From: a virus
IMG/VR virus record: IMGVR_UViG_3300030098_005115
Location: 1 to 56,959 of that record
Strand: one strand, 5' to 3'
DNA: 56,959 nucleotides
Shown: positions 12,023 to 56,959 of the stretch, in pieces
Layout: every line of letters starts with the position of its first letter
Position numbering within the stretch: the stretch's first letter is position 1
Translations under genes and position numbers: made by a program
Notes under the pieces: generated by a model
The model's database searches: none
Told to the model about the DNA's origin: nothing
What the model saw: the letters and a program-made list of their open reading frames with translations, nothing else

Positions 12023-14203
12023 ATGGCGGCATTAACTGGACAAAGTATAGCAAGTAGCTATAAAGATTTATTACAAATATCAAATTCAAATAGTGGTATA
12101 GATGGTACTGCAAGAGTTGTATCAGATGGAGAAGATACAGCATCAAAATTATATTTAGATACAAGTAGGGTAGGAGTAGGTGAACTTGCACCAACAGACG
12201 GGCTTTTTCATATTCACGAAGGAAGTGCAGGAAGTGTTACTGCTCATGCTAACGGAGATGAACTGGTTCTTGAATCTGATAATAGTGAAGTGGGTATGAC
12301 TATTCTTGGTTCAGCTACCAGCAATCAAAACATTTTATTTGGCTCCCCAACTGACCATAAGAGAGGAGGTATAACTTATGCTCATGATGGCGATACATTA
12401 ACTTTTACCACTTCTGCCTCTGCTCGCATGAAACTTGATGCGAATTCTAGAATCAGCCTTAGTAATAACGATAGTGGTACGAATAATACTCTCTTTGGGA
12501 AATCAGCAGGGGCGAGTATAGTTTCTGGGGCAAATGATAATGTTTTAATCGGACCAGAGGCAGGAGATGCTATCACTATTGGGGATGACAATATTGCTGT
12601 GGGAAATGGAGCATTAGGAGCTGAAACTGTAGGTCAAAGTTCAATAGCTATTGGAACTGCTGCCGCAGGAAACCAAGCAAAATCTGGTGGATCTCAAGGG
12701 CATATGCGAAATACTGCAATCGGTACTACTGCTTTATACTACAATGTAACTGGTACAAATAATACATTTTTAGGTGCGGATGCAGGTGTTGGTGTAAGTG
12801 GAAATTCGCATACTAATAATACTGGTCTTGGTTATTTTGCCCTAGGTGGTATTACAACAGGAGATTATAATGTAGCTATAGGTAGTGGAGCTGGTACTGG
12901 AATTACTGCACATGATAATAACATTGCTATCGGACAAGATTCTTTAAGAGTATGTGGTAATGAATTAAATATTGCTATTGGTGTTTATGCTTTAGAGGAT
13001 GGTTCAAACGGATATTCTAATATTGCGATTGGAGGTTATTCTCTTAAAGCACATACAACAAACAATACAGTAGCAATTGGCGAATCTGCACTTCAAAAGA
13101 ATACAACAGGTGTAAAAAATACCGCTATTGGTTATCAAACTTTAGTTGAAAATACAGTTGCAGATAATAATACTGCTGTTGGTTATCAGGCATTAAAACT
13201 TTCCAATAAAACAGGAAGTGAACCAGTTGTTTCTGAAAATACTGCCGTCGGGGCATTGGCTTCCTCTCAAATTACAACTGGCGTACAAAATACTTCTTTA
13301 GGTAGTTATGCCTTAGCTCAAACAGTCGATTCCGATAGTAATACTGCAATCGGTTATTATGCTTGTGGAGCTGGAGATGTAGGATCTGGTGGAGTGACAG
13401 CAGTTGGTGCTTATGCTTTGGCTGAAAATGTAGCTGGTCAGAAGAATGTTGCTGTCGGATTTCAAGCAGGAAATGTACTTACAGCAGGAAGCCAGAATAC
13501 TATTATAGGATATGATTCAGACACAGATGATAACTCAGCTACTAATCAAACTGTAATAGGAAGTGAAGTAACAGGTGTAGCTGATAACTCAGTTACTCTT
13601 GGAAATGCAAGTGTAACCGCTGTTTATGCGGCTTCAGATAGTGGGGCAATAGTGCATTGTGCTGGCTTGGGTGATGGTACTGATACATTAATTGCTATTG
13701 ACACATCTAATAATGTAAAAATAAATGGTGCTGGTGTTCAAGATACGGGAAATCCCGGTTGGACATTTATAGCTGGTAATTCAAATCAAGGAAGCATATT
13801 AGAACACGCTTGTGGTGATGCTGGTGAGATGATTGCGACATTTAGAACAACGAGTGGAGTTGCTGGAAGCATTACTACATCTGGCACATCAACTGCATTT
13901 ACTACTTCTTCCGACTACAGACTAAAAGAAAATGAAGTTGCGATTTCAGATGGGTTGACAAGAATAAACCAACTAAAACCTTATAGGTTTAATTGGAAGC
14001 ACGACAAAGACACAACTGTAGATGGATTTTTTGCTCATGAGGTTTCAGAAATTGTACCAGAAGCGATAGTAGGATCAAAGGATGCCGTTAATGATAACGG
14101 TGAAATAGACCCACAAGGTATAGATCAATCGAAACTTGTTCCTTTGCTTGTTAAAGCAGTACAAGAACTATCTGCAAAAGTAACAGAATTGGAAAATAAA
14201 TAG
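12023..14203 (+). CDS. Tail fibre with YadA-like head repeats and S74 chaperone domain (hybrid across the A/B junction)
   Basis: Host-recognition fibre, probably trimeric. Residues about 150-530 are built from repeats of the form NTAIGYxAL and NxAVGxxA, the left-handed beta-roll repeat known from YadA-type adhesin heads. The C-terminus (about 627-726) is a Peptidase S74 intramolecular chaperone domain with the self-cleavage motif SSDYRLKEN (Ser630, Lys635), then FxWK, DGFFAHEV and a final coiled coil. The domain trimerises the fibre and then cuts itself off. Bases 13692-13780 are identical to the window end, so the part after 13780 may belong to the unit-B genome. Confidence 0.88.
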   Translation: MAALTGQSIASSYKDLLQISNSNSGIDGTARVVSDGEDTASKLYLDTSRVGVGELAPTDGLFHIHEGSAGSVTAHANGDELVLESDNSEVGMTILGSATSNQNILFGSPTDHKRGGITYAHDGDTLTFTTSASARMKLDANSRISLSNNDSGTNNTLFGKSAGASIVSGANDNVLIGPEAGDAITIGDDNIAVGNGALGAETVGQSSIAIGTAAAGNQAKSGGSQGHMRNTAIGTTALYYNVTGTNNTFLGADAGVGVSGNSHTNNTGLGYFALGGITTGDYNVAIGSGAGTGITAHDNNIAIGQDSLRVCGNELNIAIGVYALEDGSNGYSNIAIGGYSLKAHTTNNTVAIGESALQKNTTGVKNTAIGYQTLVENTVADNNTAVGYQALKLSNKTGSEPVVSENTAVGALASSQITTGVQNTSLGSYALAQTVDSDSNTAIGYYACGAGDVGSGGVTAVGAYALAENVAGQKNVAVGFQAGNVLTAGSQNTIIGYDSDTDDNSATNQTVIGSEVTGVADNSVTLGNASVTAVYAASDSGAIVHCAGLGDGTDTLIAIDTSNNVKINGAGVQDTGNPGWTFIAGNSNQGSILEHACGDAGEMIATFRTTSGVAGSITTSGTSTAFTTSSDYRLKENEVAISDGLTRINQLKPYRFNWKHDKDTTVDGFFAHEVSEIVPEAIVGSKDAVNDNGEIDPQGIDQSKLVPLLVKAVQELSAKVTELENK
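13692..13780 (+). repeat. 89-bp exact direct repeat, copy 1 (inside fibre gene)
   Basis: Identical to 56871-56959, the last 89 bases of the window, and in the same codon phase. Upstream of it the two fibre genes stay similar but not identical for several hundred bases, and base 13691 (A) versus 56870 (G) is the first mismatch. It is the probable point where two phage genomes are joined. Confidence 0.95.
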
Positions 14204-14212
14204 GAGTTAAAA

Positions 14213-14287
14213 ACGAATTACGAAAACTACAAAGCTCTAAAATCAGATGGATATGAACAGCTAATTACAGACGTAAAAACACTATAA
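14213..14287 (+). CDS. Possible 24-aa peptide with ACG start, or fibre readthrough tail
   Basis: After the fibre stop (TAG) an AGGAG ribosome site is followed at good spacing by ACG AAT TAC GAA and an open frame ending ITDVKTL. There is no ATG, GTG or TTG. The frame is also in phase with the fibre gene across its TAG. Either ACG is used as start (one change from ATG), or the peptide is made by readthrough, or this is a decayed gene. Confidence 0.3.
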   Translation, partial: TNYENYKALKSDGYEQLITDVKTL

Positions 14288-14313: not shown

Positions 14314-14529
14314 ATGGCTAAAGAAAACATTGAACCACAGCCTAAATTAAATCTTAATGGAAAAGAATATGAAATAGATTCTTTAACTGATGTCCAAAAA
14401 GAAATATTAGGTGACATAGATAATTACCAAAAACAAATAAACAAGTTAGAAAGATGGAAGGCTGGGCAAATAGCAATATTAAAAACTTCCATAGAAGAAA
14501 CAGAAAAGCAAAAGAATGATAATCCGTAA
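14314..14529 (+). CDS. Small coiled-coil protein, DUF6447-like
   Basis: A 71-aa protein preceded by AAGGAGAATAATT. The pattern LNLNGKEYEIDSLTDVQKEIL, followed by a heptad-like helix with KLERWK, resembles the small DUF6447-type proteins common near phage tail genes, which have a short beta hairpin then a coiled coil. The assignment is from memory of the motif, not a search. It overlaps the next gene by 14 bases. Confidence 0.55.
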   Translation: MAKENIEPQPKLNLNGKEYEIDSLTDVQKEILGDIDNYQKQINKLERWKAGQIAILKTSIEETEKQKNDNP

Positions 14530-14965
14530 ATCAAGTCAAGGTTACAGAATAAGAATACACAGGAACACAACTCCGGGTGTAAAGAGAACAAAGACATACC
14601 CTGATGGCACTCAAGAAGTTTTAACTTACCCTTCTTCATACGCTTATTTTGTAGAGGTTGATGGAGAGGTCGTAAAAAGATCTGACAGTTTTAAAACTAT
14701 CGAAGAGTATTATGTTTCTGAGTGTGCCAAAAAGTATGACAACGGTCATGGCAGGCTAAGCATTGGAGAGCATCATATAATTAATGCTGTTGCTACTTCT
14801 CAATCTGACTACCCTACGGACTCTAATACAAAAGCTGAAATAAAAGATTTTTATGATAAGCGTAGCATTTCCTACAGCTCATCAGAGACAAAAGCAGAAT
14901 TGCTTTCTCGCATAATACCTGTCGTAAAAGGCGATAAAGAAATTTCTAAGCATATAAGCAGGTGA
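14516..14965 (+). CDS. Hypothetical virion protein with C-terminal HeH/LEM-like domain
   Basis: A 149-aa protein with a beta-rich N-terminal part (RKSSQGYRIRIHRN) and a C-terminal segment, about residues 102-140, of the form TKAEIKDFYDKRSISYSSSE then TKAELLSRI. That is the helix-extended-loop-helix pattern of HeH/LEM domains found at the ends of many phage tail-associated proteins. Such domains usually mediate protein or DNA contacts. The parent protein's function is not recognised. From this gene on, AGG becomes a common arginine codon. Confidence 0.55.
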   Translation: MIIRKSSQGYRIRIHRNTTPGVKRTKTYPDGTQEVLTYPSSYAYFVEVDGEVVKRSDSFKTIEEYYVSECAKKYDNGHGRLSIGEHHIINAVATSQSDYPTDSNTKAEIKDFYDKRSISYSSSETKAELLSRIIPVVKGDKEISKHISR

Positions 14966-14969: not shown

Positions 14970-15287
14970 ATGGATCAAATAAACAAGTACACATCAAGAG
15001 AAGCATTAAATTTAAAGCTAGGACAGAATGGGTTTGATGTTGTTGCAGAGCACGATACAAATACTCAAACTCCAGATTCTGGTAACTGGGTAGCCCTAAC
15101 AGCAGTCTCTTTATCTGCATCTAGTCCTGCGGCTACATACTGCAAAATTAAAGTAACTTCAGGAGTAGGCGACTCACACACAGATGCCTATCTGTACTTA
15201 ATACCCGGAGACATTCTCTATGGAAACTTTACAGGCATTGTCAATCATACAGACTCTACTGCCGCATTGATTGCTTATCGTGGATAG
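14970..15287 (+). CDS. Small fibre-associated protein, MANLQK-like paralogue
   Basis: A 105-aa beta-rich protein whose start (INKYTSREALNLKLGQNGF) parallels MANLQKYSVKESLN (11606) and MANLQKFRAHESLN (54922). Its C-terminal half has the TYCKIKVTSGV..YLYLIPGD layout seen in those. Finding one on each side of the unit-B fibre gene suggests a duplicated fibre accessory. It overlaps the following GTG-started membrane gene by eight bases. Confidence 0.5.
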   Translation: MDQINKYTSREALNLKLGQNGFDVVAEHDTNTQTPDSGNWVALTAVSLSASSPAATYCKIKVTSGVGDSHTDAYLYLIPGDILYGNFTGIVNHTDSTAALIAYRG

Positions 15288-15700: not shown

Positions 15701-18193
15701 ATGCCTAGGCAGACATATATTATAAATAATTTTTCAGGTGGCGTTAATAATCTAAAGGACTCAAGAGATATAGCTGATAATGAATCTGCTAAAATCAATG
15801 GTTTAATGACTGACAAGCAAGGCGTTCTTAGAACCTCTGGAGCATTTGTTAATCATGCTGATGGTTCAGGAACACTTGCTAGTGATGCTGGAAATAACGG
15901 AGACAATCAAGCTGGTAACGGATTGTTTTATTTTGAATCTGATTTTGGAAGAAAATCGGTTGCTAGTACTACTTCTGAGTCCGGCTCTATTTTTGGCAAA
16001 TTTTATCCTGCTGGCGGTAGCAACCCTCCTCAATTATCTCAAAGTAGTAGCACTATATTTAATACTTATTCTATTGGTGATAAAATATCTATCAACGGAT
16101 CTGCAAGTAATGATGGAGTTTATACAATTATAGGAAAGCACGATCTTAGTAGTTTTAGTGGCCACCAGAGGTATAGATTTAGTTTTTTAGAAGACCTTAC
16201 TTCAGAGGATGCCTCTTCTGCCTTAACAATAGATCATTATGAGCAATATGGGGCTAAGTTTTATATGGTTCCTACTGAAAGTGCCGATGCCAATGATGCT
16301 TCTCATTTGACAATTACAATACACGACTCTGAGAATGACGACTGGAACACTCTTACTGACCTGCAACCTATTAAGAGCGATGTGTCGGAAACATTTTCAG
16401 ATCAAATGATAAGCGATGTTTTTAAACCTGTTTATTACGCTATTGACAATGCGGTTAGAGTTTCTGATTCTAACTTCAAGAATCAAGCTAGGGTAAAATG
16501 GCATGGGTACATAGAGAGAGTTCATCCAGATCAGGCTTATTTAGGTTGGTACACAAAAGATAATGAGCTAAAAGCACCTACTGCTGGCGATGATGTAAGG
16601 CTTGGAAACACTTATCCTGATACGGCTGGTGTTGGCTTGCACTGGTATATCCTTACCCCAGCCAACACTTCAAGCTCTTGGCAACCGGACACATACGAAA
16701 CGGGAATGACCTTTATTTACGATGGGAATCAAGAATCTCAAATAACAGAAATGCAAGCTAGTTATGTTGAGTTTGCTGTAGCGGCAGGAGATGCAGTTAC
16801 TGTAAAGGCTTTAATGTTCACGCCTTACAGCCCTAGGATAAGCGGAAGTAGGCTTTACTTTAGAGTTTCTGGCAGTGACGATGAGTGGACTTTTTTAGCA
16901 GAGGCTGATTTTTCAAAAGGAATAAGAGCTAGTTTAGATGCTGATTACACTTCAGGCTGGACAACAAGCGGCTCTGCGAATCAATATAGCACAGGAACAG
17001 TAACTTCCCTACAGCCAAGCTTAGATACTTATGAGACCTTAAACGGCTGGCCTTCGAGCACTTTATCTATTGATTTTGGCAGGATAGGAGAGATGTGGAT
17101 GTGTGCGGCTATCTGTAACCGAAGAGTTTTTTTAGCTAACGTAAAAACAAGAAATGAAGATTCTGCCAATGACGACAGTAAGCACTACGGAGATAGAATT
17201 TTATATAGCGAAATAGGAAAGTACGACACTTTTCCTTCTTTTAATTTTATTGATGTTGTTCGTGGTGATAGTGAAGAATATGTGTCTCTTATTGCGTATG
17301 GTGATAGGCTATTAGCTTTTAAACAAAGAACTTTGTTTATTGTAAATGTGTCATCTCCTTCTCCTTCAGGCTGGTTTTTAGAGAACACTTTTAAACACAA
17401 TGGAGTTAGGCACAAAGAAGCGGCTTTTAGATCTGACGAAGGTGTTGTTTGGGTAAACTCTGCTGGATGCTGGTTTTATAATGGATCCAACATCGTTAAT
17501 CTTTGCGATGGCAAGCTGGACACTGTAAATGCAACAAATGCGAATACTGACAATGGGCTTTCTTGGAAAGACTTTTACAACGAAAATAGCATTGTTGGTT
17601 ATGCCCCTAAGTACAAACAGGTTATTATATTGCAAGACTCTGATGGGTCTACAGATCCGATGAATACTTTAATATACGACTTTGGATCTAGGTCTTGGGT
17701 TCAAAGCTCAGATCAAACAACTTTCTTTGACAATGTTACTTATAGTAATTTTATTATAGATGGTAACGGAGATTTAGTAATTCAAACCTCTACAGCCACT
17801 GGCACTGCGAACAATATTAGGTATTATTTACCCACCTCAAGCACTTCAAGTTCTGGAATAGAACTCATAACAAAGTTTTTAGATTTTGGCAATCCTTATC
17901 GTTTGAAAAAAATATATAAAATAAATATAACTTATAAATCAAGTGCGGCACAAGCAGACCCGTTGGAAGCAAGATATATTAATAGCAGTGGAGTTATGCA
18001 GTCGTTTACAGATGTTGATGGTTCTGTAGATTTTGCGGATACGTCTTCAGAGTGGAGGGTTGCTTCATTTGCATTTAGCACACCCATTACATGCCAAGCT
18101 GTTCAGCTTAAAATAAACCCCCCTAATGCCGGGTCTATTGACATAAATGAAATTGCAATAGATTATAGGTTTATACACAAGAAAGTCTCCTGA
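15701..18193 (+). CDS. Large tail protein (tail tube/nozzle-like)
   Basis: An 830-aa virion protein. The N-terminus INNFSGGVNNLKDSRDIA with a following SAKINGLM is typical of the large tail tubular or nozzle-type proteins of podoviruses, which start by threading along the tail axis. It is beta-rich throughout, with a propeller-like central part (RILYSEIGKYDTFPSFNF, GDRLLAFKQRTLFIVNV, VWVNSAGCWFYNG). Only one copy is in the window although capsid genes are doubled. A hand count gives about 12 AGG and 1 CGA arginine codons, unlike the unit-A portal. It overlaps the next gene by one base. Confidence 0.7.
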   Translation: MPRQTYIINNFSGGVNNLKDSRDIADNESAKINGLMTDKQGVLRTSGAFVNHADGSGTLASDAGNNGDNQAGNGLFYFESDFGRKSVASTTSESGSIFGKFYPAGGSNPPQLSQSSSTIFNTYSIGDKISINGSASNDGVYTIIGKHDLSSFSGHQRYRFSFLEDLTSEDASSALTIDHYEQYGAKFYMVPTESADANDASHLTITIHDSENDDWNTLTDLQPIKSDVSETFSDQMISDVFKPVYYAIDNAVRVSDSNFKNQARVKWHGYIERVHPDQAYLGWYTKDNELKAPTAGDDVRLGNTYPDTAGVGLHWYILTPANTSSSWQPDTYETGMTFIYDGNQESQITEMQASYVEFAVAAGDAVTVKALMFTPYSPRISGSRLYFRVSGSDDEWTFLAEADFSKGIRASLDADYTSGWTTSGSANQYSTGTVTSLQPSLDTYETLNGWPSSTLSIDFGRIGEMWMCAAICNRRVFLANVKTRNEDSANDDSKHYGDRILYSEIGKYDTFPSFNFIDVVRGDSEEYVSLIAYGDRLLAFKQRTLFIVNVSSPSPSGWFLENTFKHNGVRHKEAAFRSDEGVVWVNSAGCWFYNGSNIVNLCDGKLDTVNATNANTDNGLSWKDFYNENSIVGYAPKYKQVIILQDSDGSTDPMNTLIYDFGSRSWVQSSDQTTFFDNVTYSNFIIDGNGDLVIQTSTATGTANNIRYYLPTSSTSSSGIELITKFLDFGNPYRLKKIYKINITYKSSAAQADPLEARYINSSGVMQSFTDVDGSVDFADTSSEWRVASFAFSTPITCQAVQLKINPPNAGSIDINEIAIDYRFIHKKVS

Positions 18194-18906
18194 TGGATAG
18201 AGACAGTAGGAGAATACAAAACTCTAAAGAAGGCGGTATTAGGACTTTAAATAGGGGAGTTTCTTCAAAGACTGTCTTAGAGGGCGATCATGTTTTTTCA
18301 AAGCCAAAAGGGAAGACTTTAGCCTTATATAAAAAACATCAAGGAGTTCTTTATAAAAACAATTTCTCTAAAGATGGAAATCAAATTGTAGATCGAGATA
18401 TAAATGTAGGTAGAGCAGTCAATCCTCACCTATATAAAGTTCAGGGTCATAATTGGCCTGCATTCAGAGCGACCATTACCAACGGTCAGACAATAGCTAG
18501 TCATTCAAGTAATTTTACAGACTTAACGTTTAGTGGAGAGCTGTATGACAATGACAATAACTTTGCTAGTAATGTGTTTGTCACACCGATAAAAGGGATC
18601 TACCACTTTGAATTAAAAGTTTTATACGATGACGATGATAGTGATGAGATAGATGCAGGGGAAAGAATGGATTTGAGAATATCTAACAGTACTGATGGTT
18701 CAGTCTTTGAGCAAGCTGTTAATCATACGAATGTAGATTATGCTTCAAATAAATTTATTTTATTTACCTGTAGTACGGATTATTTAATAGAAAGCGGAAA
18801 AACAATTAAGGCTCAGGTGCTTAATGCTTCTGGTGCAAGTCAAGACATTTATAGTGCTCAAAACTACTATTCTTATTTTACAGGCTTTTTAGTTGCACCT
18901 GTTTAG
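18193..18906 (+). CDS. Tail protein with C1q-like jelly-roll domain
   Basis: A 237-aa protein. The N-terminal 80 residues are basic and likely anchor it to the virion. Residues about 85-237 form a C1q/TNF-like beta sandwich: PAFRATITNGQTI, then FTDLTFSGELYDNDNNF, VFVTPIKGIYHFELKV and an FTGFLVAP end. Phages use such domains as trimeric receptor-binding or adhesion modules. It is coupled to the 830-aa gene (TGATGG overlap). Confidence 0.65.
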   Translation: MDRDSRRIQNSKEGGIRTLNRGVSSKTVLEGDHVFSKPKGKTLALYKKHQGVLYKNNFSKDGNQIVDRDINVGRAVNPHLYKVQGHNWPAFRATITNGQTIASHSSNFTDLTFSGELYDNDNNFASNVFVTPIKGIYHFELKVLYDDDDSDEIDAGERMDLRISNSTDGSVFEQAVNHTNVDYASNKFILFTCSTDYLIESGKTIKAQVLNASGASQDIYSAQNYYSYFTGFLVAPV

Positions 18907-18969
18907 TAGATTCAATATAAATGATACCCTCTTTTACTATAATTGTATTAAATTTTAAAGGATTATAAT

Positions 18970-20025
18970 ATGCACTACTCTTCCAATAAATCAAAAGGGT
19001 ACACACCTATTAGCTCTGGCCCCAATCGAAGTGGCTTTTATATGGGCCCCCAAGGCAACCTTTTAAGTATGATGCAAACTGGCGGATCTCCAACTGCTTT
19101 TAACAGGAGCTTTGGTTTAAGTGCTGGTGGTGCTAGATTAGCACAGGCGAGGCAAAGACAGTCTGACCTAAGAAAGCTTGAAGCGGCTCAACAAAGAGAG
19201 GCAAAAAGACAGCAAAAAGGGGGTATTTTCGGAAGTGTAGGTAGTCTTGCCGGCGGCCTTCTTGGTGCGGCAATCACTCCTTTTGCTGGCCCTGTTGGTT
19301 TAGCTATTGGCTCTGGGCTTGGTACGGCTTTAGGCAAGGGGCTTGGAGAGAGGTTTGGTGCTGGGAAAGCACAATCCGTTGATCGTTCTGGTACGGTATT
19401 TAATCAAGAGGCCTTTAAAGATGTTGGTCGAGCTAGTAAAGATTTTACGAAAGGGATTTTGCAAAGAGCTGGTATGGCAGGTGTAAGAGCAGGTTTAACT
19501 GCTGGACTTTCGCCTTCTGGGGGGATATATGGCAAGTTCAAGGGTAAGCTTGCTGACCCAATTAAGAACTTTATCGGTAGGACTAAGGCTGGAATGACTG
19601 GTTTAAGTGGCTTTGAAGGAACTGGGTATGGCACTAATTTACTGTTGGATATGGCAGGCAAGGCTAGTGATGTTAAAGGTGCGGCTCTTCAGTCGGGTCG
19701 TGGTTATGGTAGCGGAGTTTCTGGAGGGTTTAGATTTCGCCCACCGGAAGACTTATTAGATTTTAGTTCTAAGACTGAATCAGCGATGGATCAGATTAGA
19801 AAGTTAGGCGATCAGACAATGCTTTTTGATACATACGCTTCTATGCCAAAAGCACCTACATACACAAATCCTAATTTTGGAGCAAGTGTTGATCCTACTA
19901 TGTACACAAGCTTTGAAGAGTTCGACCTCTTTAACCCTCTTAATCAAAGTCCTCCTGCACAGGCACCTAGTCAAACTCCAACAGGTCTTTCCGGGCTTCT
20001 AAATCCCACTGGAGGGCTTTTCTAG
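18970..20025 (+). CDS. Probable internal virion / ejection protein with glycine-rich membrane segment
   Basis: A 351-aa protein with an Arg/Gln-rich helix (about 50-82) followed by a long glycine- and alanine-rich hydrophobic stretch (about 84-125, with GGLLGAAITPFAGPVGLAIG), the glycine-zipper form used to insert into membranes. The C-terminus is Pro- and Asn-rich. It begins the run of four genes leading to the 1799-aa protein, the usual place of podoviral ejection proteins that build a channel through the cell envelope. Preceded by an AAAGGATTATAAT ribosome site. Confidence 0.6.
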   Translation: MHYSSNKSKGYTPISSGPNRSGFYMGPQGNLLSMMQTGGSPTAFNRSFGLSAGGARLAQARQRQSDLRKLEAAQQREAKRQQKGGIFGSVGSLAGGLLGAAITPFAGPVGLAIGSGLGTALGKGLGERFGAGKAQSVDRSGTVFNQEAFKDVGRASKDFTKGILQRAGMAGVRAGLTAGLSPSGGIYGKFKGKLADPIKNFIGRTKAGMTGLSGFEGTGYGTNLLLDMAGKASDVKGAALQSGRGYGSGVSGGFRFRPPEDLLDFSSKTESAMDQIRKLGDQTMLFDTYASMPKAPTYTNPNFGASVDPTMYTSFEEFDLFNPLNQSPPAQAPSQTPTGLSGLLNPTGGLF

Positions 20026-20027
20026 GT

Positions 20028-20723
20028 ATGCCGGGGTTTAAAACAAATACCTTATTTGATTTAATGTACGGCGACAAAAAGAGCAATTTGCTTGATGATA
20101 TTGTTGGGTATGAGGATGGCGGTTTCGTAGGGTTCCAATATGGAGGCGGTCTAACAGCAGAGCAGGTACTTGAAGAACAAGGCCTTGATCCTACTCCAGA
20201 GCAATTAAAATTATTTGCCGATATGGATCCTACTCAAATACAGAATCTTGCTAGAGGCTTACAAGAGAATTTACTTACAGGAACTCAACAGTTTGCACAA
20301 CAACAAGCCCAGTCTGGATTTGCTGGTTCTGGAGCTGGTCAACAGGCGATGAGTCAAATGAGGCAAAGTGCACAGGAAGGATTGTCTAGGGGTATCGAAC
20401 AAGCTCAAAGAGACTTTACATCACAAACATTAGGCACTGCGGCTGATTTAGTTGCTGGTGGTGCAGAGTTCGGAGCCAGCCCTATTGGCACAAGTGTCTT
20501 GTCTTCGGATTATAGAGCAGGGCAAGATGCGGCGGCAGGAGTTGGTGCTGGCACTGAAACAACTGGGGATTTATCCGTATCAACTATCCCTCCGGGTTGG
20601 CCTAGCGTTAACTCTTACAATGCTTGGGTTAGTGCCGGATCAGATCCTAATAACGCTACTAGCTATGGCTTTTCAGGGCCGTCTTTCCTATTAGGTGCCT
20701 CCGGAGGAGGTTACGGTGGCTAG
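20028..20723 (+). CDS. Probable virion protein with GGxV motif and Gln-rich helix
   Basis: A 231-aa protein. Near residue 30 it has a YEDGGFVGFQYGGG segment, the same glycine-pair motif repeated in the 564-aa protein at 45238. Residues about 70-140 form a Gln-rich amphipathic helix (FAQQQAQSGFAGSGAGQQAM). This composition recalls podoviral internal proteins. It starts ATG two bases after the preceding stop and overlaps the next gene. Confidence 0.5.
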   Translation: MPGFKTNTLFDLMYGDKKSNLLDDIVGYEDGGFVGFQYGGGLTAEQVLEEQGLDPTPEQLKLFADMDPTQIQNLARGLQENLLTGTQQFAQQQAQSGFAGSGAGQQAMSQMRQSAQEGLSRGIEQAQRDFTSQTLGTAADLVAGGAEFGASPIGTSVLSSDYRAGQDAAAGVGAGTETTGDLSVSTIPPGWPSVNSYNAWVSAGSDPNNATSYGFSGPSFLLGASGGGYGG

Positions 20724-21609
20724 ACGTAGTATCTATTCAGCAAGACAGTCTTCCCCTTCCACATACGACACTAGCTTTGCAGACTTTTTAGATAGTATAC
20801 CACAGCTTGTTGGACAGTATCAGCAAAATAAATTAGCTCTTGAACAGCAAGATTTTAACAATGAGATGAGGGTAGCAAACCTAATTCCTCCAAGTTCGAG
20901 GGCTGAGGTTTTTTCGACTTCAAAAAACCCACAAATAAGAAGTGTAGGAAAAGCTTTAAAAGAAGAAGAGGATTCTTACCAGTCTGTTTTAAATTCTTTT
21001 GACCCTGACCTTTCAGGGGATGAAAAAATAAATAAGTATAAAGAACTTTTAATATCTCCTTTTGTAGCGAACAATCCATCTCGAATAAAGCAGGTGGAGG
21101 AAAAAATAGAAGCATTAAACAAAAACAAAACGAGTGCTTCTGTTGAGTCGTGGGTCAAAAAAAATCCCGGGTCTTTTGGTGAGTTAATGAAAGGACTCGC
21201 CAAGTCTAACCCTTCTAAAGCTATGGAAGAAATAATAAAAAAAGAGCAAGGTTCAAAAAAAATGTATCGAGATGCTTTAGGTTTTATGAGGTATTTAGAA
21301 GACAACCAAAGAGTAAATCCTAATATTGCAAAAGCAGTTTCTCCAAGAGCCCAAGTTGATGCCTTAACAAAACAGTTGGATGTAGCCAGTCGAAATGTAA
21401 TGTTTTTTCAAGGAGACAGAAACTCGACTGAGTATAGCGACTTGGTAAATATTCAAAATCAAATATCAAAAAGAATAGATAAGCTACTGAACCCCACAAC
21501 AGCAACTCCTTTTACTACCAGCTTTAAAAACAGAATTGGAAACATAGACCTCAATTCGAGCGAAGCAGATAGTACTCAAGTGGTGAATAAGATTCCAGTT
21601 GAGTATTAA
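20716..21609 (+). CDS. Probable internal virion protein, 297 aa, GTG start
   Basis: I place the start at GTG (20716) because GGAGGAGG lies five bases upstream. A GTG at 20695 would lengthen the protein by seven residues but has no such site. The product is helical with a Gln/Glu-rich first third and no membrane segment. It sits between the glycine-rich protein genes and the 1799-aa gene and overlaps both neighbours, which suggests a role in the ejection complex. No sequence family recognised. Confidence 0.55.
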   Translation: MARRSIYSARQSSPSTYDTSFADFLDSIPQLVGQYQQNKLALEQQDFNNEMRVANLIPPSSRAEVFSTSKNPQIRSVGKALKEEEDSYQSVLNSFDPDLSGDEKINKYKELLISPFVANNPSRIKQVEEKIEALNKNKTSASVESWVKKNPGSFGELMKGLAKSNPSKAMEEIIKKEQGSKKMYRDALGFMRYLEDNQRVNPNIAKAVSPRAQVDALTKQLDVASRNVMFFQGDRNSTEYSDLVNIQNQISKRIDKLLNPTTATPFTTSFKNRIGNIDLNSSEADSTQVVNKIPVEY

Positions 21610-24600
21610 TGCCATTAGAATCTCTGAACAAACTTTATGATTCAGTTTCTAAAACTTATGAAATTGGCGATTTTAACACCTTTAAAACAAAGATGGGAAA
21701 CCCAGATTCTAGGCGTAAGTTTTACGACAAGGTATCTGAGACCCATGAGCTTGGGGATTTTAACACTTTTGAAGTAAAGGTTTCTTCTTCGGCCCCAGCT
21801 ATAGACCCTGAAGAAGTGCTAATTGATCCAGATGAAGGGTTTGAGGCACAAAGAGAAAAATCTTTTAAAAATTTAATTTACGAATCTGTAAAGCAACAGG
21901 AAAATAGTGTTGCTAAAAACAATCCTTACGGCGTAAATCTTCCTCGCAAAAAAACCAATATAGAAAAAATAAAAAATCTTGGCGGTAGCGTTATGATGGG
22001 CAGTCGTAGCCTTCTTGAATTTCAGGACATGGAAACCGGTATGCGTACTGGTGAAGATATTATTGACCGTACATTAGGGCAAGCAAATAATGACCCTGCG
22101 GTTTTTTATTCTAAATACTCTGGACTACCAATAGAAAGTCCTGAAGTGCAGTCTTTTGTTAAGATTGTAAATCAAAAAAGAAAATCTTTAATACCTAAGC
22201 AAAACAAAAACTTACAAAGACTTATTGAAGGATTAGAAGCTGGTAGGGACAACCCACAATACATAATAAAAACAGCTTCAGAGCCAGATGCAATAAATAA
22301 AATTTCCAACTTTCAAAGACCGACTTCTAAGTTTATTGGCTTAACGCCTGTTTCTGCTATAGAGGGGTTTGAAGAAAGGCCAGCCCCTGAAAAAAGAAGA
22401 ATATTTAAACCTACGGATAAAGATGTTGCAAGGTTTTTCAATAAAAGGATGATGCAAGAAGAGATAGTTAAAGAGAAAAGAAAAGGCTTGAGTGAGCGTG
22501 ATGCTTATAGAAAGGTTAAGTCTAGCGTAGGAGCAACCCCACCCAGTGTTGTTGATTTAGCTATGGAAAAGTCTGTTTCTGGTGCTGTTTTTAGAATTAT
22601 GAACTTAGATCAAACTGTCCCCTTAGATGATTACCCTGATGTAAAAATAGACAAAGCAAGTGATATGGTTTCTGTAGATTTTTTAGAGCAAGTAATTTCA
22701 GGTGCTATCTCTATGGTTATGCCTGCTGATGCTTTGCTTTTTGGTTTGGGTGGTAAAGGTGGTGCAATAGTGGGTAAAAAGGCAATCAAAACCCTTCCTC
22801 AGTTAAAAAGGGTGGCTAGGTATGCAGATAGTGCCGCAAGGATAATGTCTAAAGGCTTAAAGGTTCCCTTGCCTCAAGTTAGAACCTTTGCGAAAGAAGC
22901 GGTTGTTAGAATGACAGGGGGAGCTGGTGGGTTTGGAGCTTTTGATGCCGGCAGGAATATAGTGGATCAGATTGAACTTACAGGTGAGGTTGATGTTGTT
23001 GAGGCATTAGAGTCTGCTTTAAAGGGAATTGCTGTTGGTGGAAGCGTTGGGTTTTTGGGTCTTGCTGGTGCTAAAGCTGGAAATTTAATTGGTGACAAAA
23101 CAGCTAAAGCTGGAGAATTTGGTTTTGAAGTGCTCGGGCTGGGAACTGTCGCACCTCTTATTGAGGGTGAGGAGATAACAAAGCGAGGATATGTTGAAGC
23201 GGCTGGGACTATTATAGGTTTGAAATTTTTAAAGCAATTCTCTACTGAAAATCAAAGAAGGATAACGGAAAGTCTTGGTGAGGAGATACAAAGACAAACG
23301 GAAATATCCGGAAGACCAATGCCTGAAGTTGCTAATGGAATTAGAAATAGGCTAAAGACTGCCGTAGAGCTTGCGATAGAGGGCAAGTCGCCAGAAAAAT
23401 CCAGAAGTCCTATGTTAGAGAAAGGTATAGAGCTTACAGAAGGTTTTAAAAGCGATCTAATAAAAACTTCAAAAGATCCATCTAAAAGCACCTTGACAGA
23501 AACAGGAATAGATTTTAAAAAAATTGACGTTTCTGCTAAGACAACTAAACAGCTTGTTAAAGAGGGTGCTTTATCTCTAGGTCAGGATGGATTGAGAGGT
23601 ACAAAAGAACTTGGAAAGGTAGAATTTACTCCAAGAAATCAAACGAGACCAGAAAGATTAGAGATAGAGTCAGATATTAGAAGGCTCTCATCTGATATGA
23701 AAACCCTCGAAAAAAACGGTGTTCAACAGAAAGTATTAGATGATATGCAGATTAGTATAGATGCTAAAGTTGAAAAGTTAAATGAAATAGTCGTTGAAAG
23801 AAAAGATATTGATAATTTATTCACGCCTCCAAAGCCATTAACCCCAGCCGAAAGAAAAATTGTTTCTACTGAACAAGTTGCAAAAGATGTTGTAGAAGGC
23901 AGGATCCAATTTAAAGAGCGATTAGAAAATTTAGAGATTGAGTTAGTTAGAAGAGATAAGGCAGAAATTAAAAGACTGGAAAATTATTTAAAAGAGGCTG
24001 ACCTGTACAACAATCCATTTGAGCCAAATCCTCTTCGAGAAGTTCCCCTTCATCCGGCAGATGCAGGCAGGCGTAAACAAGCTGAAATAATAGCTTCTTT
24101 AAAAAGAAGAGAGCAAGATAGGGCTTTAGAATCTTTAGATTTGCAAAAGACCTCAACTATAAAAACCCCTTCAGAGAAAAAAATAAAAACATTTAAGCTT
24201 CAAAAGCAATTTAGCGATTTAGATCTCACAATAAAAAATAACGAAAGTGCACTCTCTAATCCAAATTTAACACCATTAACAATAGAAAGGCTTAAGAAGT
24301 CTATTCAGAGAGCTAAAGAATTGCAAAGAGACACGCAGAAAATTGCAAGTGAGGAAGGAATAGAGCTTCAATCTTTTATTGGAATAGTAAGCCCTAGAAA
24401 GATAAAAGAATTTTTTGGATCTTTAAAAAACAAACCAAAGAGCTTGCGAGATATTGAGGTAGACAGGCTTTACAACCAAGCTCAAGCAAGGTTAGACAAA
24501 AAAATTAAAGATCAAAATATAAAAGTAGACAATTCAGAAACCCTATCTACAGATCCGGTGAAAAGAGGAGGTGCTGAAAGGGTCTACAACTTCTTTTTTT

Positions 24601-30111: not shown

Positions 30112-30403
30112 TATTATCCTCCTTTACTTTGTGTAAATATGCAGTTATATCCTTCCTATCTAAGGCAACCTTACTTTCCTTTGCGAGTCTATATATAATA
30201 TGATATGGGACATGTTCGCCCATATTATTTTCTATTAAGGTCTTTACTAAGTCCCTACACTGATAGCCTGACAAGTTATCAAAAATAGCATATATTCCAG
30301 AGTCTAGTCCAAGCTTGTATTCATCGCTAGTTTTAAAGTCGTCTGCCTTACATGCTAATTCGTAGGAATCATACACCTTTATTGTTTTACTTTGTTCACT
30401 CAC
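30104..30403 (-). CDS. Hypothetical protein, 99 aa
   Basis: Soluble helical protein (SKTIKVYDSYELACKADDFK). ATG overlaps the upstream nuclease stop and its own end overlaps the next gene. No motif. Context suggests a small partner of the nuclease cassette. Confidence 0.5.
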   Translation of the reverse strand: MSEQSKTIKVYDSYELACKADDFKTSDEYKLGLDSGIYAIFDNLSGYQCRDLVKTLIENNMGEHVPYHIIYRLAKESKVALDRKDITAYLHKVKEDNNE

Positions 30404-45238: not shown

Positions 45239-46932
45239 TGCCAGAAACCACAGACACAATTAAAGCAAAGCTTACTCCCGGCGAGTTTGTTATCAGGAAA
45301 GAAGCGGTTGATATGGTTGGGTTACCTTTATTAAACAAGATAAACGATCTTCCAAAAGAAGGTGGTCATTCAGAAATAGACAAATTAATAAACATGGCTT
45401 CTATGGAGAATATGAAACCTATGTACGGTGGTGGGGAAGTGAAGATGGGTTATGGTCATGGTGGTATGGTAAAAGACAATATGATGGGCATGATGGGCGG
45501 AGGAATGGCGAATAAGCCTATGATGGGTTACGCTCATGGAGGTATGGCAAAAAATTTAAAACCTGTTCCTGAAGACAACCCCGGACTTGGAAAACTACCA
45601 GATCAAGTAAGGAACAGAATGGGTTATATGCAAGAAGGCGGTTTGGCAATTAGAAGATCTGAATATAAAGAGCCTGATGTGAGTTATGTAAATATTGCCA
45701 ACCTAGATTATCCAAGCTATGGTGTTGAGCCTGATTTATTCCAGAGATTGAGCAAAAAATACGATGAAGATTATAATAATATTTCTAATTTGATGCTTGG
45801 AACAGGCAGGGATGAACCGGCTAGAGACATTTTTTATTCAATAGGCTTAGGAAACGAGAGCTCAGATGAGTATGCAAAAAAGATTGGTGCAACGGAATCT
45901 GATAAAGCTTTAGCTAGGGAGTATGTTAAAGCTTTTGATAGCTTAAAAGAATCTTACGACACAAAGAATCGAAATCTTGGTAAGGATTATTATTCTTATA
46001 AAAAAGGTGTTCGCCCAGCAGGTATGCTCAATTATTCAGAAAGTCTTTATGATGAAAAACAATTAAAACAAGTTAAAAAACTTTTAAGTAAAATGTCAGA
46101 AAGCAAGCTGTATAAAGATGTGGAAGGTGATTATATAGATGTAATCCATCGCAATATGCCGTCAAAGTATAATATCGAGCCTTACATTAAAGACTTTCAA
46201 GAAGGTGGCATGGTAGAAGACTCTTTAATGGGGATGATGTATGGTGGCATGGCTAAAAAGAAAAAAGGCTATGGCTATCAAGATGGTGGCGAGGTTGATA
46301 GAGGTTTTCTTACTGAGGATGATGGAGTGTATAACTTCAAAAGAGTTTTATCTGTTCCAGCAAGTCAAGTTGGTGGCAAAGAAGGCTTTCGTTATTATTC
46401 TGGAGAGGCTTCTGCTGATGACCTTCAATCGGCTCGGGACATAGCTGGTCTTTTAGCGAATGAAAAAATGGTCACTGCCCCTCAAGACTCTATTCCTTTC
46501 GACATGATAGATAGATTTTTAAAGCCTGAAAAAAAAGGATTGAGGGCATTTCTTCCCTTTCAAGAAGGCGGTATGGTTGGCCCTCCAGCACCTCAGCAAA
46601 ATGAAATAATGCAACCCGGACAAACTCCACCCGGTACACTTATGGGCCCCTCTGAGGCAGATATAGAACAGCTTAGGATGATGCAAGCTCAGGGATTACA
46701 AGATTCTATACAGCAAAGCATCGTAGACAAAGCTAGGGATTCATTACAGCTAATGCAGTTATTAGACTCTTTAGGTGGAGAGACAGAGAGTATTGAAAAT
46801 ATAGGCCCTAATAAGCCATTCTTAGATGATGGAAAGATTTACTTAGATCAAGAAGAGTTACCATCAGCAGAAGAGCCTTCAAGGGGGGATATGATAAGAA
46901 TGCTAATGAACGCCGGTATGCGTGTTATCTAA
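45238..46932 (+). CDS. Virion-associated protein with repeated GGMV motifs, 564 aa
   Basis: The N-terminus KAKLTPGEFVIRKEAVDMVG is a pattern found in many marine and podoviral tail-associated proteins, where LTPGEFVI precedes Met/Gly-rich repeats. Five or six repeats of the type GYxHGGMV, EGGMV, YGGMA and DGGEV are spread over the length (about residues 62-110, 131, 325-355, 443). The middle is helical. It is coupled to both the endolysin and the portal. Likely packaged, perhaps a head or ejection component. The motif also appears once in the protein at 20028. Confidence 0.55.
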   Translation: MPETTDTIKAKLTPGEFVIRKEAVDMVGLPLLNKINDLPKEGGHSEIDKLINMASMENMKPMYGGGEVKMGYGHGGMVKDNMMGMMGGGMANKPMMGYAHGGMAKNLKPVPEDNPGLGKLPDQVRNRMGYMQEGGLAIRRSEYKEPDVSYVNIANLDYPSYGVEPDLFQRLSKKYDEDYNNISNLMLGTGRDEPARDIFYSIGLGNESSDEYAKKIGATESDKALAREYVKAFDSLKESYDTKNRNLGKDYYSYKKGVRPAGMLNYSESLYDEKQLKQVKKLLSKMSESKLYKDVEGDYIDVIHRNMPSKYNIEPYIKDFQEGGMVEDSLMGMMYGGMAKKKKGYGYQDGGEVDRGFLTEDDGVYNFKRVLSVPASQVGGKEGFRYYSGEASADDLQSARDIAGLLANEKMVTAPQDSIPFDMIDRFLKPEKKGLRAFLPFQEGGMVGPPAPQQNEIMQPGQTPPGTLMGPSEADIEQLRMMQAQGLQDSIQQSIVDKARDSLQLMQLLDSLGGETESIENIGPNKPFLDDGKIYLDQEELPSAEEPSRGDMIRMLMNAGMRVI

Positions 46933-48962
46933 TGGATAAAGACCCTAGAGCATTATACAATGAAGATCTCCATCGTCAATGGCGAGATGCCCGTTCTGAT
47001 TGGGATACTGAGGCTCGTAAAGACATTGATTTTTATCTTGGTAATCATTTTACTACTGACGAGTCCGATGAACTAGCCAGCCGTAACCAAGCAGATATTC
47101 CTATGGATCGAATATCTTCAGCAATAGAAAAGTTTAAAGCTGTTTTAACAGCAAGACCACCAGCATTTACAATCACTCCTAGGGAAGACTCTGACGTTCA
47201 GATGGCTACAGCATGGAGGACAATAATGGGTTACATCTGGCAAACATCAGATGGTGATTCACAAATAAAACAAGCCATTCAAGACTACGCTACAACAGGG
47301 ATGGGTTATTTATATGCTTATATAGATAGCGAATCAGATTTTGGTAGAGGCGATGTCCGGTTTACATATATTGACCCATTTAGAGTCTACGCATCACCCT
47401 CATCTCGAGACCGATGGTTCAGTGATTCAGATGGTATTATCCTTTCAACCATCCTCACAGGTGAGCAGGTTGTCGGCCTCTACCCTGAATTAGGTGATCA
47501 AAAAGACCCAGAAACTGGAGAAACTATACCGGGTTTAATTAGGCAGATTTCAGGGTTTGTGTATGATGAAGAAGATTACCCTTCCAGTCAAAATAGAAAT
47601 TCAATGACTGTATTTACCCCAGCCGAGGTAAAGGATAAAGATTATTTTGAGGTAAAGAAATATCAGATACTCGAAAGGTTTTATAAGGTAAAGGTTCCTT
47701 ATTTTAGAGTTATAGATATGCAAAGCCAAGAGGAAACAATTTTATCAGAAGAAGAGTTTTTTAAGTTTTCTCAAGAAAACAAAGAGGCACTTGAGATTGA
47801 TGCTTTTAGAGCAGTGAGGGTTTTACAAACCAGAGTGAAGGTTTGTGCTTCTATTGGCGAGATAGTTCTTTATGAACAGATTTTAAATACAGATCAGTAC
47901 CCAATCGTACCACTGCCCAATATCTGGACAGGCACTCCGTACCCAAAGAGTGACGTTTCAAGAGCTAGACCTATGCAAAGACTGCTAAATAAGCTTTGGT
48001 CTCTTGCTCTTTCTCACGCTCAGGCTTCTGCTGGGTTAAAGCTTTTAGTTCCTATTGGAAGCGTTGATGATATAAGCCAGTTGGAGCAGGACTGGGCAAA
48101 CCCCAATGCTGTTATTGAAATAGATTCCTCCCAAGGGGAGCCTCACTATCCTGCTCCGCAGGCTTTAGCTGGTGAGTTTTATAGGTTAATACAGCAGTCA
48201 GAATTTTATATTGATTTTATTTTTGGACTGCCAGAGATGATGCATGGCTTTGCAGAAAAAGCACCCGAGACAGTAAAAGGAACAGAAAGAATGATTGCAT
48301 TAGGATCTGAAAGGCCAAAGTCTAAATTAAGAGATATTGAGTTTAGTATAAATCGCTTAGGTAAAGTGCTTTACAACCTAGCAAAAGGTCACTATACTCA
48401 CAAAAAGATTTTTAGAATTGTTCAACCAAACAATGATATGACAGAGGTGATGGTTAATTTTTATACTGACACAACCAATGCCGTATTAGATATTAAAAAA
48501 TATCGTCACTTCTTAGACCAGCACGACATCAGGATTGAGCCGGGTTCGACTATGCCTTCTAATAAATGGGCAGAGCTTGGTGTTTATCTTGAGGCATTTC
48601 AAATGGGTATTGTAGACAGGTATGAAGTCCTCAAGAAGAATCCAGAAATATTTGATAAGGAAGGTGTAATGAGAAGGACAGATGAGAGACAGCAGATGAT
48701 GCAACAAATACAAGGTATGGAAGAACAATTAAAGAATTTGCAGGGAGACTTGCAAACAGCCCAAAGAGAGTCTATCAGCGATAGAAAGAGAGTCGAAGTT
48801 GAGAAATTCAAAAGTAGATTATCTGAGGTATCTTCAGAATCTAAAGCTGACAGAAGGGTACAACGTAGTAAACTCGAAAACGAGGTGAAGCTCGAAGTGG
48901 GGAAATTGGCAAACAATCTCAAGGATATTGAGAGAAACGCTGGTTCAGCCCCAGAAGCGTAG
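46932..48962 (+). CDS. Portal protein (unit B)
   Basis: 676-aa portal colinear with the one at 5027 (shared motifs given there) and with a similar Gln/Glu-rich C-terminal coiled coil. Hand-counted arginine codons are about 11 AGG and 4 CGA, the reverse of the unit-A portal. It overlaps the stop of the GGMV-protein gene and is followed by the scaffold gene with an AAGGAGGTATT ribosome site. Confidence 0.88.
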   Translation: MDKDPRALYNEDLHRQWRDARSDWDTEARKDIDFYLGNHFTTDESDELASRNQADIPMDRISSAIEKFKAVLTARPPAFTITPREDSDVQMATAWRTIMGYIWQTSDGDSQIKQAIQDYATTGMGYLYAYIDSESDFGRGDVRFTYIDPFRVYASPSSRDRWFSDSDGIILSTILTGEQVVGLYPELGDQKDPETGETIPGLIRQISGFVYDEEDYPSSQNRNSMTVFTPAEVKDKDYFEVKKYQILERFYKVKVPYFRVIDMQSQEETILSEEEFFKFSQENKEALEIDAFRAVRVLQTRVKVCASIGEIVLYEQILNTDQYPIVPLPNIWTGTPYPKSDVSRARPMQRLLNKLWSLALSHAQASAGLKLLVPIGSVDDISQLEQDWANPNAVIEIDSSQGEPHYPAPQALAGEFYRLIQQSEFYIDFIFGLPEMMHGFAEKAPETVKGTERMIALGSERPKSKLRDIEFSINRLGKVLYNLAKGHYTHKKIFRIVQPNNDMTEVMVNFYTDTTNAVLDIKKYRHFLDQHDIRIEPGSTMPSNKWAELGVYLEAFQMGIVDRYEVLKKNPEIFDKEGVMRRTDERQQMMQQIQGMEEQLKNLQGDLQTAQRESISDRKRVEVEKFKSRLSEVSSESKADRRVQRSKLENEVKLEVGKLANNLKDIERNAGSAPEA

Positions 48963-49820: not shown

Positions 49821-51197
49821 ATGGCAATTTCATATAATTCTGGAACATTAAAGTCCAGTGATATAACTGCTTCAACTACCTCTGCTGGCGTAGGACAAGC
49901 CCCTGATCGTAGACGGCTATATAATTTTGGAGATAGAGTTGCTGAACTGGCACCTGAAGAATCTCCATTTTTCGTCTACCTTTCAAAGGTGGCTAAAGCA
50001 CCTACTGACGACCCTGTATTCCGTTATTTGGAAAATAGGAATAAAATCAACTGGACAGATCGCTCATTCTTACTTGCGGCGGCTGTAAACAGTGGTTCTG
50101 CTGTATCAGCAGGAACTTCATACTCGTTTACAGTAGACACAAGCGGTGGAGCTTCTGTTGATTGGTTACTCAAAGGTATGGTGTTTGTTGTGAATACGGT
50201 TGACGGTACGGCTGGGATTGGTCATACGATTGTTCGTGTGGATTCCGCCGTTACTGACTTAGGATCATCATCTTCCTTTACTGGTAAGATCATTGATGTC
50301 TCTAACTCTAATGTTAGTGGATACAATGTCCTTGCAGATAATGATAGTTGTCAAGTAATTGGTACTTCATTTGAAGAAGGTTCTGGTTCTCCTGACGTTT
50401 TCTCAACTGAGCTTGAAGATAGTTATGGGTACACCCAGATCTTTAAGACAGCCGCAGAGATGACTAACACAGCATACGCTACGAGGTATAGAGGATACGC
50501 AGACGAATGGTCTCGTATCTGGGCAGATAAATTACGAGAGCATAAAGTTGATATTGAAAGAGCTATGCTATTTGGGCAAAAAGCCCGGGTAGGTGGCATT
50601 CAATACACTGAAGGAATCGTTGGACATATTGTAAAAAATGTAAACCCATCATCTTCCGATGGTGCGTTTTCATATACTTCTGGCAGTGCATACTACAGAA
50701 CTGCGGCACAGTCTGAGTTTACATATGATAGACTTCTTTCTGACTTAGAAGTAATCTTCGACCCAGCAAGGGGAGGATCAAGTGATAAGCTTGTTCTTTG
50801 TAGCTTGCCTGTAATTACATTCTTTAACAAGTTAGGCGATGGAGCATTCGTTGATGCTTCAATGGGCCATAGCAACGCACCTTATCGGGTGAACTTTGAC
50901 TCTCGTGAGGGAGCTTTTGGTCATTCTATTATGGTAATTGACACTATTCATGGTCGCTTAAACCTAGTGAAAGAGCCACTGTTTCGTGGTATCGCATCTG
51001 GTTTTATGCTTATGGCTGATATGAGTCAAGTTGCTTACAGACCACTTGTTGGAAATGGAATTAATCGTGATACTCAAGTAATGACCAATGTTCAATCAGC
51101 AGATGAAGATCTTAGAAAAGACATGATCTTGACCGAAGCCGGTCTTGAGATTACCCTTTCTGAGTCTCATGCGTTGTACAACATTGAAGGCTTATAA
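49821..51197 (+). CDS. Major capsid protein (unit B)
   Basis: 458-aa shell protein, ribosome site AGAGGAAAAAA. N-terminal arm with DRVAELAPEESPFFVYLSKV, central KLREHKVDIERAMLFGQKA helix, and a C-terminal beta part ending SHALYNIEGL. Matches the order of features in the unit-A capsid at 8202. The Ser/Gly-rich insertion around 95-150 is longer than in unit A. Confidence 0.9.
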   Translation: MAISYNSGTLKSSDITASTTSAGVGQAPDRRRLYNFGDRVAELAPEESPFFVYLSKVAKAPTDDPVFRYLENRNKINWTDRSFLLAAAVNSGSAVSAGTSYSFTVDTSGGASVDWLLKGMVFVVNTVDGTAGIGHTIVRVDSAVTDLGSSSSFTGKIIDVSNSNVSGYNVLADNDSCQVIGTSFEEGSGSPDVFSTELEDSYGYTQIFKTAAEMTNTAYATRYRGYADEWSRIWADKLREHKVDIERAMLFGQKARVGGIQYTEGIVGHIVKNVNPSSSDGAFSYTSGSAYYRTAAQSEFTYDRLLSDLEVIFDPARGGSSDKLVLCSLPVITFFNKLGDGAFVDASMGHSNAPYRVNFDSREGAFGHSIMVIDTIHGRLNLVKEPLFRGIASGFMLMADMSQVAYRPLVGNGINRDTQVMTNVQSADEDLRKDMILTEAGLEITLSESHALYNIEGL

Positions 51198-54861: not shown

Positions 54862-54862
54862 C

Positions 54863-54902: not shown

Positions 54903-54921
54903 AAATTAGCAGGAGAACACT

Positions 54922-55257: not shown

Positions 55258-55267
55258 GGGGTGCACG

Positions 55268-56959
55268 ATGGCTTTTATTACAACAACAGCAAATTCAATT
55301 TCTTCAGGGGGTACGATTTCTGGATCTATAACAATAGAGGGAGATTTGACTGTAAATGGAGATGGAGCAGGAGCTTATGACGAGATTGTAGATGGTAATT
55401 TAAGAATATCATCTACTAACAAATTAGAATTTGGAGATACGGGAACATATATACACCAATCTGCGGATGGAGTTTTAGATTTAGTAAGTGATACAGAGAT
55501 AGAAATAAACGCTACGACCATAGATGTTAATGGTGCTATGGAAGTCAGTGGCACTTTAACTGCTTCCGATGATTTGGTAGTTAGTGATGAATTAAGACCT
55601 TACGAAATAAGAGCTGATGGAACTAGTGGTGTTAGATTGGCAAATAGTCAAGGTGGTATTGTTGGTTATTTAGGATTAAGAAGTAGCGGTAATTATGGAT
55701 CAGGTTTAAAGTTAGAAGATGATATAGGCTCTATAATATTTGGTAGTGATTCAGATTATTCTGTTAAATACGATTCAACTTCTGATGCTCTTGAAATAAT
55801 TGAAGGTATAACAAGTGCGAGTGAAACCGTGTTATTTTCAATTAATTCCGATTCTGTAATTAGTCTATCTAATAACGATTTAGGAACTGGCAACACCCTT
55901 TTCGGAAAAGATACAGGCGATGCAATAGCATCTGGAGGAAATTATAATGTTGCTATAGGGCAAGATGCTCTTGGAGAAAACACTACTGCTGATGCAAGTA
56001 CTGCTATTGGGTACGAGTCTCAATTAGCACAAAATGGGGGATATAATACAACTGTAGGTTATCAGTCTATGAAACTCACAGGCGGAGGTACATGTTATTC
56101 TAATGTTGGTATCGGTAGCTTTGCTCTTTATAGACATTCAGGTCAATATGCAGTAGCTATTGGAGAGGCGGCAGGCTATACTAACTCTGCTCATTATACG
56201 ACTGCTATCGGAGCAGAATCATTAAGAAATAATACAGATGGTCAATTTAATACTGCGGTAGGTTATGGCTCTTTAAAGACTAATGTAGATGGTGATAAAA
56301 ATACAGCGATAGGTTATAAATCATTATTTACTTTTGAAGCAGATACAGATGGACATGGTTTAAATTCTGCACTTGGTTGGGAATCTGGAATGGATTTAAC
56401 TACAGGGACAGAGAACACCTTAGTAGGAGCAACCGCAGGTGGGAATTTAACAGACGGAGACCAAAATACTGCTTTAGGTGCTTACGCATTGGGGCAAACA
56501 ATAGCTGGATCTAATCATAATACTGCACTTGGATATTATGCTTGTGGAGCTGGGGACATAACAAATAGTGGAATAACAGCAGTTGGTGCATACGCTTTGG
56601 CTGAAAATGTAGGTGGTCAAAAAAATGTTGCTGTAGGATTTCAAGCAGGAAATGTGCTTACAGCAGGTAGTCAAAATACTATTGTCGGATATGATGCAGA
56701 TACAGATGATAACTCAGCCACCAATCAAACTGTCATAGGAAGTGAAGTAACAGGTGTAGCTGATAACTCTGTAACTCTTGGAAATGCAAGTGTTACTGCG
56801 GTTTATATGGCTTCAGATAGTGGGGCAATAGTTCATTGTGCTGGTATAGGCGATGGTACTGATACATTAGTTGCTATTGACACATCTAATAATGTAAAAA
56901 TAAATGGTGCTGGTGTTCAAGATACGGGAAATCCCGGTTGGACATTTATAGCTGGTAAT
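55268..56959 (+). CDS. Tail fibre with YadA-like head repeats (unit B), 3' end missing
   Basis: Open frame of 564 codons running off the window. The N-terminal ~200 residues are a beta-rich shaft (GGTISGSITIEGDLTVNG, VDGNLRISSTNKLEFGDTG). From about 205 on come beta-roll repeats (NVAIGQDALGEN, TAIGYESQL, NTAVGYGSLKTN, NTAIGYKSL). The last ~130 residues closely match the unit-A fibre, ending in the exact repeat. Continuing in frame at 13781 would add 140 residues with the S74 chaperone, giving about 704 aa. Confidence 0.85.
   Translation, partial: MAFITTTANSISSGGTISGSITIEGDLTVNGDGAGAYDEIVDGNLRISSTNKLEFGDTGTYIHQSADGVLDLVSDTEIEINATTIDVNGAMEVSGTLTASDDLVVSDELRPYEIRADGTSGVRLANSQGGIVGYLGLRSSGNYGSGLKLEDDIGSIIFGSDSDYSVKYDSTSDALEIIEGITSASETVLFSINSDSVISLSNNDLGTGNTLFGKDTGDAIASGGNYNVAIGQDALGENTTADASTAIGYESQLAQNGGYNTTVGYQSMKLTGGGTCYSNVGIGSFALYRHSGQYAVAIGEAAGYTNSAHYTTAIGAESLRNNTDGQFNTAVGYGSLKTNVDGDKNTAIGYKSLFTFEADTDGHGLNSALGWESGMDLTTGTENTLVGATAGGNLTDGDQNTALGAYALGQTIAGSNHNTALGYYACGAGDITNSGITAVGAYALAENVGGQKNVAVGFQAGNVLTAGSQNTIVGYDADTDDNSATNQTVIGSEVTGVADNSVTLGNASVTAVYMASDSGAIVHCAGIGDGTDTLVAIDTSNNVKINGAGVQDTGNPGWTFIAGN
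56871..56959 (+). repeat. 89-bp exact direct repeat, copy 2 (window end)
   Basis: Identical base for base to 13692-13780 and in the same codon phase of a homologous fibre gene. It ends at the last base of the window, as expected where an assembly graph breaks or wraps at a repeat. Confidence 0.95.

Follow-up and report, generated by a model that had tools for sequence, protein, structure and literature searches.

A probable assembly chimera of two related uncultured phages in the 57-kb viral record IMGVR_UViG_3300030098_005115

As described in the COBRA paper (PMC10914622), overlaps of maxK or maxK-1 remain at contig ends where assemblers meet a region shared between genomes, and k=89 is among the word lengths listed for some JGI SOAPdenovo assemblies (PMC4149020, PMC5369317). 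It is also already known that distantly related marine phages can have fibre modules in common: in PMC10579305, the Alteromonas schitovirus A5 and distant phages have a common host-recognition fibre module. Here we analyzed the virus record IMGVR_UViG_3300030098_005115 over its full length of 56,959 nt (hereafter the window), which very probably joins, as an assembly chimera, two uncultured phages that are related yet distinct, both of them marine judging from their relatives. The record is almost certainly a complete 43-kb circular map (unit B) with a 13.7-kb piece of a second phage (unit A), and not a virus with two capsid modules. As at the COBRA breakpoints (PMC10914622), the end of the window repeats a single exact word found elsewhere, in a region that two genomes have in common; unlike there, the overlap partner lies within the same contig, which gives a rho-shaped path, and k is one that we infer. 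Units A and B resemble the phages of PMC10579305 as distantly related marine phages with a common fibre module. Those phages are cultured and their fibres characterized, whereas ours are metagenome contigs in which only the distal fibre segment is common at high identity. The features of the window are collected in Table 1.

Table 1. Features of the window (coordinates in the 56,959-nt record)
Feature	Position	Strand	Remarks
Unit A, A-type phage piece, left end to fibre body	1..13648	+	near-clone of G001
TerL of unit A	3469..4962	+	phrog_38, E 3.6e-75
Portal of unit A	5027..7195	+	phrog_156, E 1.2e-64; 100% aa in G001
Major capsid protein (MCP) of unit A	8202..9518	+	phrog_1328, E 8.1e-14
Composite fibre ORF	12023..14203	+	A-type body up to 13648; private alleles at 13654-13691; B allele starting at 13692
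Short bridge, six private alleles	13649..13691	+	matches neither G001, B, L036 nor L156
Repeat copy 1	13692..13780	+	path entry point into circle B
Unit B, complete 43,179-bp B-type map	13781..56959	+	once 56959 is joined to 13781
Gene b1	14516..14965	+	after fibre in B-type contigs
Gene b2	14970..15287	+	next after b1 in the majority of B-type contigs; 100% aa identity in L036
b3-b8, tail/ejection-type late genes	15701..27008	+	include 1799-aa protein; collinear in G007
Cas4/exonuclease-like gene, early block	30400..31128	-	phrog_1706, E 2.2e-21
ArdC-like anti-restriction protein	38805..39716	-	phrog_7245, E 1.5e-70; Pfam ArdcN + MPTase-PolyVal
TerS of unit B (weak)	41091..41645	+	phrog_51, E 2.2e-5
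TerL of unit B	43180..44775	+	phrog_38, E 2.8e-76
Endolysin of unit B	44831..45238	+	phrog_465, E 5.3e-36
Portal of unit B	46932..48962	+	phrog_156, E 4e-57
Major capsid protein of unit B	49821..51197	+	phrog_1328, E 7.5e-23
Fibre of unit B, cut by contig end	55268..56959	+	continues in frame at 13781
Repeat copy 2	56871..56959	+	flush with contig end

Two phage maps within one record

An earlier note on this DNA, made from its letters alone, had claimed that the last 89 bases of the window recur at 13692-13780, and the two copies are indeed identical at 89/89 positions. The base preceding the repeat differs (A at 13691 versus G at 56870), and the match, which ends on its 3' side solely because the contig ends, is ambiguous only on its 5' side. 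This stretch is the sole exact repeat of >40 bp in the window (word lengths k=41 to 89; none at k=90). The longest repeat expected by chance is ~17 bp, and a chance repeat was rejected. Around the repeat the fibres of units A and B are 88% identical over 498 bp; 20 mismatches fall within the 187 bp immediately before the repeat and none within its 89 bp, so the switch is sharp. We thus found an exact overlap flush with the contig end and a mismatch upstream of it, the pattern expected of a rho-shaped assembly chimera.

Joining 56959 to 13781 yields a circle of 43,179 bp, and the join is in frame as the note had held: 55268-56959 comprises 564 codons, and at 13781 translation would carry on in the frame of 12023-14203. 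The note's further claim that closure restores a full unit-B fibre agrees with what other sequence shows. A related contig of 5,443 bp (L156) shows 0 mismatches to window 51807-56769 (4,963 bp) and extends 290 bp beyond 56959, in frame, into the fibre end, and an S74 chaperone domain (residues 630-681 of the composite fibre reading frame) lies downstream of the join.

B-type phages share the order TerS-TerL-endolysin-c5-portal-scaffold-MCP-c8-c9-c10-fibre-b1, which is that of the closed circle and not that of the linear window. In B-type contigs from other samples the fibre is followed by b1, mostly then by b2, and on to b3 where the contig extends so far (G007, G009, G012 and L154, and the portal-bearing L066, L083, L093, L107 and L113). 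G007 covers the portal through the fibre to b1-b8 together with the early block, while G009 (42,920 bp) shows the circle in permuted form, starting at b3 and ending after fibre-b1. The 43,179-bp circle matches both in gene order and size. G007, G009, G012, L154 and L156 resemble unit B in the gene order of the closed 43-kb circle; the first four differ from it in their portals (about 79-85% aa identity), and L156, identical over its 4,963 bp, in carrying the fibre tip of another phage, G001 (see below). The unit B portal is matched at 83-90% aa identity in the best 80 viral-contig loci. No relative of this portal was found in bacterial or archaeal genome contigs that could indicate a host, and named phages gave only remote matches, to TerL and portal. 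Of the single-copy genes that the note had assigned to the circle, TerL, endolysin, portal and capsid were recognized by PHROG models, each in one copy, and TerS weakly, whereas scaffold, connector and ejection genes are placed by gene order only; these three labels and that of the unit A TerS have no convincing family-model match.

The note had also described a second, diverged packaging/capsid module, and unit A does have its own TerL, portal and capsid genes by PHROG. It shows the order TerS-TerL-portal-MCP-fibre, with TerS by position only. Unit A as present in the window lacks the c1-c2-endolysin part found behind the fibre in A-type phages, and no endolysin gene was seen in it; A-type phages have that gene downstream of the fibre. 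The closest relative is an uncultured phage from a different sample, IMGVR_UViG_3300030329_004626 (G001; 45,779 bp, with a 10-N gap inside TerL), which aligns to window 1071-14250 at 99.5%. Only 7 mismatches were counted among 12,569 aligned bases over window 1077-13648, against 50/555 (9%) over 13649-14203, and beyond 14250 the two are unrelated. G001 is thus a near-clone of unit A that differs in its fibre tip and in everything downstream at those coordinates: it has one packaging/capsid module followed by fibre-c1-c2-endolysin and its own tail genes in place of b1-b8. Two more distant A-type records (G003 and G004) have a compatible gene order. A search for the rest of the A strain with the 1128-aa protein encoded downstream returned only G001 itself and a 46% relative. 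Window 1-1076 is only partly alignable to G001; window 283-917 stands against G001 reverse complement 93-334 as a replaced segment amid 95-100% identity, and the window has no counterpart of G001 reverse complement 495-568.

Over whole segments, the tetranucleotide usage of unit A correlated at 0.82-0.84 with the rest of G001 and at 0.51-0.66 with parts of unit B; a sliding version agreed at 1-8 kb and did not discriminate at 8-12 kb. Independent assemblies provide a separate map for either half (A in G001, G003 and G004; B in G007, G009 and G012), which bears out both parts of the note's main claim, a closed 43,179-bp map and a fragment of a second phage.

Alleles across the fibre junction

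The passage from A to B alleles is not a clean step, and B alleles run from 13692. Having followed G001 to 13648, the window agrees with B at 13649 and 13651 and then carries six private alleles at 13654-13691, a haplotype with no exact match in viral contigs. Because these six lie between A and B alleles, a third haplotype bridges the units. Its source is either an A strain whose own tip coincides with that of B for 89 bp or more, or a B-type phage in which the fibre body is A-like; both leave upstream unit A a different phage. A bridge whose alleles are absent from all other sequences compared does count against a simple jump between two haplotypes.

Two contigs bear on the bridge. In L036, b1 and b2 lie behind the fibre at 99% and 100% aa identity (96% nt); its fibre body is 88% identical to that of A, its tip resembles that of the window, and no A packaging module is in view, the contig beginning within the fibre so that the upstream backbone lies outside it. 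An A-like fibre before b1 therefore does occur elsewhere, which counts against a chimera. L156 equals G001 for 515 bp (window 13556 to 14070 in unit A coordinates) and is thus a B-type contig with a G001 tip. Its B-identical and G001-identical parts overlap by 35 identical bases (13556-13590; window 56735-56769). Stretch 4929-5443 of L156 resembles a reciprocal counterpart to the join seen in the window. A plain k-mer jump was rejected as the origin of L156: the stretch shared by B and G001 is only 35 bp, and such a jump needs k ~33. It is possible that L156 is a real recombinant or a low-k artefact.

The best of the alternatives is a special case of the chimera, in which an A phage, a recombinant fibre and a B backbone were chained and the fibre join would be real in a third, L036-like phage with an A-derived fibre body, upstream unit A still belonging to another phage. 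The three-step pattern of A, private and B alleles across 13500-13800 fits this variant, as do the A-like fibre body ahead of b1-b2 in L036 and the B body with a G001 tip in L156; against it, the backbone upstream of the L036 fibre is out of sight and no B-packaging contig with an A fibre body was found. We regard it as possible but rather unlikely.

The portals of A and B are only about 37% identical, and between the two types the similarity of the fibre tip far exceeds that of all else compared, gene c2 excepted. Near-clonal contigs differ in this tip, which appears to have been swapped between phages whose portals are so distant. From contig comparison, the chances seem evenly balanced that the tip (the last ~550 bp, the S74 region) is traded between near-clonal phages of the two lineages at a pace that outruns point mutation elsewhere; contigs alone would not separate true tip exchange from assembly effects. 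If true, such trading would itself have produced the long run of identical bases on which the assembler went wrong, and the distal fibre segment is a candidate place where distant phages share near-identical DNA.

Assembly path and alternatives

The simplest account of how a chimera of two phages would have arisen is as follows. An A-type and a B-type phage, presumably co-present in the sample, would have in common a stretch of 89 or more identical bases towards the 3' end of their fibre genes, and at k=89 both paths would merge at this shared 89-mer node of the de Bruijn graph. The assembler would enter via unit A, cross at the shared fibre tip into the circular path of phage B, complete one lap (43,179 bp) and stop on returning to the merge node, a rho-shaped path. 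A stop at that node would leave the overlap flush with the contig end. No other rho-shaped contig was seen among 152 loci, most of them cut pieces.

The note had left open a real recombinant or cointegrate, that is, one phage of at least 57 kb with two packaging/capsid modules and a crossover in the fibre. The contig is uninterrupted, the join preserves the frame, and A-like and B-like phages seem to exchange fibres (L036 and L156). However, both portal types were found together in 0/27 related records, each of which holds only one type; 57 kb exceeds the longest relatives (about 40-43 kb for B-type and 45-50 kb for A-type); an overlap at the contig end typifies an assembly breakpoint; and the near-clone of unit A continues differently. 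A single real phage or cointegrate of 57 kb is therefore very unlikely. The note's other option, the chimera, is strongly favoured because unit A has a near-clone with other downstream genes, fibre-b1 recurs in independent contigs and none of the 27 related records has two portal types. That the phage is linear and part of its fibre duplicated internally, with the end match a genuine partial repeat and not closure, is scarcely credible: no direct terminal repeats were found in six relatives read fully or nearly so, but on this reading the B fibre would stop short at 56959 and lack an S74 domain, where L156 continues in frame, and related contigs such as G009 are permuted versions of one circle.

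The 57-kb arrangement is almost certainly an artefact, and the record should be split into two. Taken as one genome, it would imply a phage with two packaging/capsid systems; unsplit, it would overstate genome size and distort taxonomy and gene-sharing networks. A simple screen would look for a 'linear' viral contig whose end recurs exactly once inside the same contig.

Some minor observations concern gene placement. Window 36001-41000, which contains the ArdC-like gene, has a tetranucleotide usage unlike that of all references (r 0.31-0.47) and is possibly a recent insertion. The endolysin gene follows TerL in B-type phages (window 44831-45238) and the fibre in A-type phages (G001 reverse complement 15428-15826). 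Gene c2 (window 42271-42588; G001 reverse complement 14625-14942) encodes 105 aa with 93% aa identity between A and B types; it has a sub-threshold match to DUF2570 and is possibly a spanin-like lysis gene, located after the fibre in several contigs and upstream of TerL in unit B.
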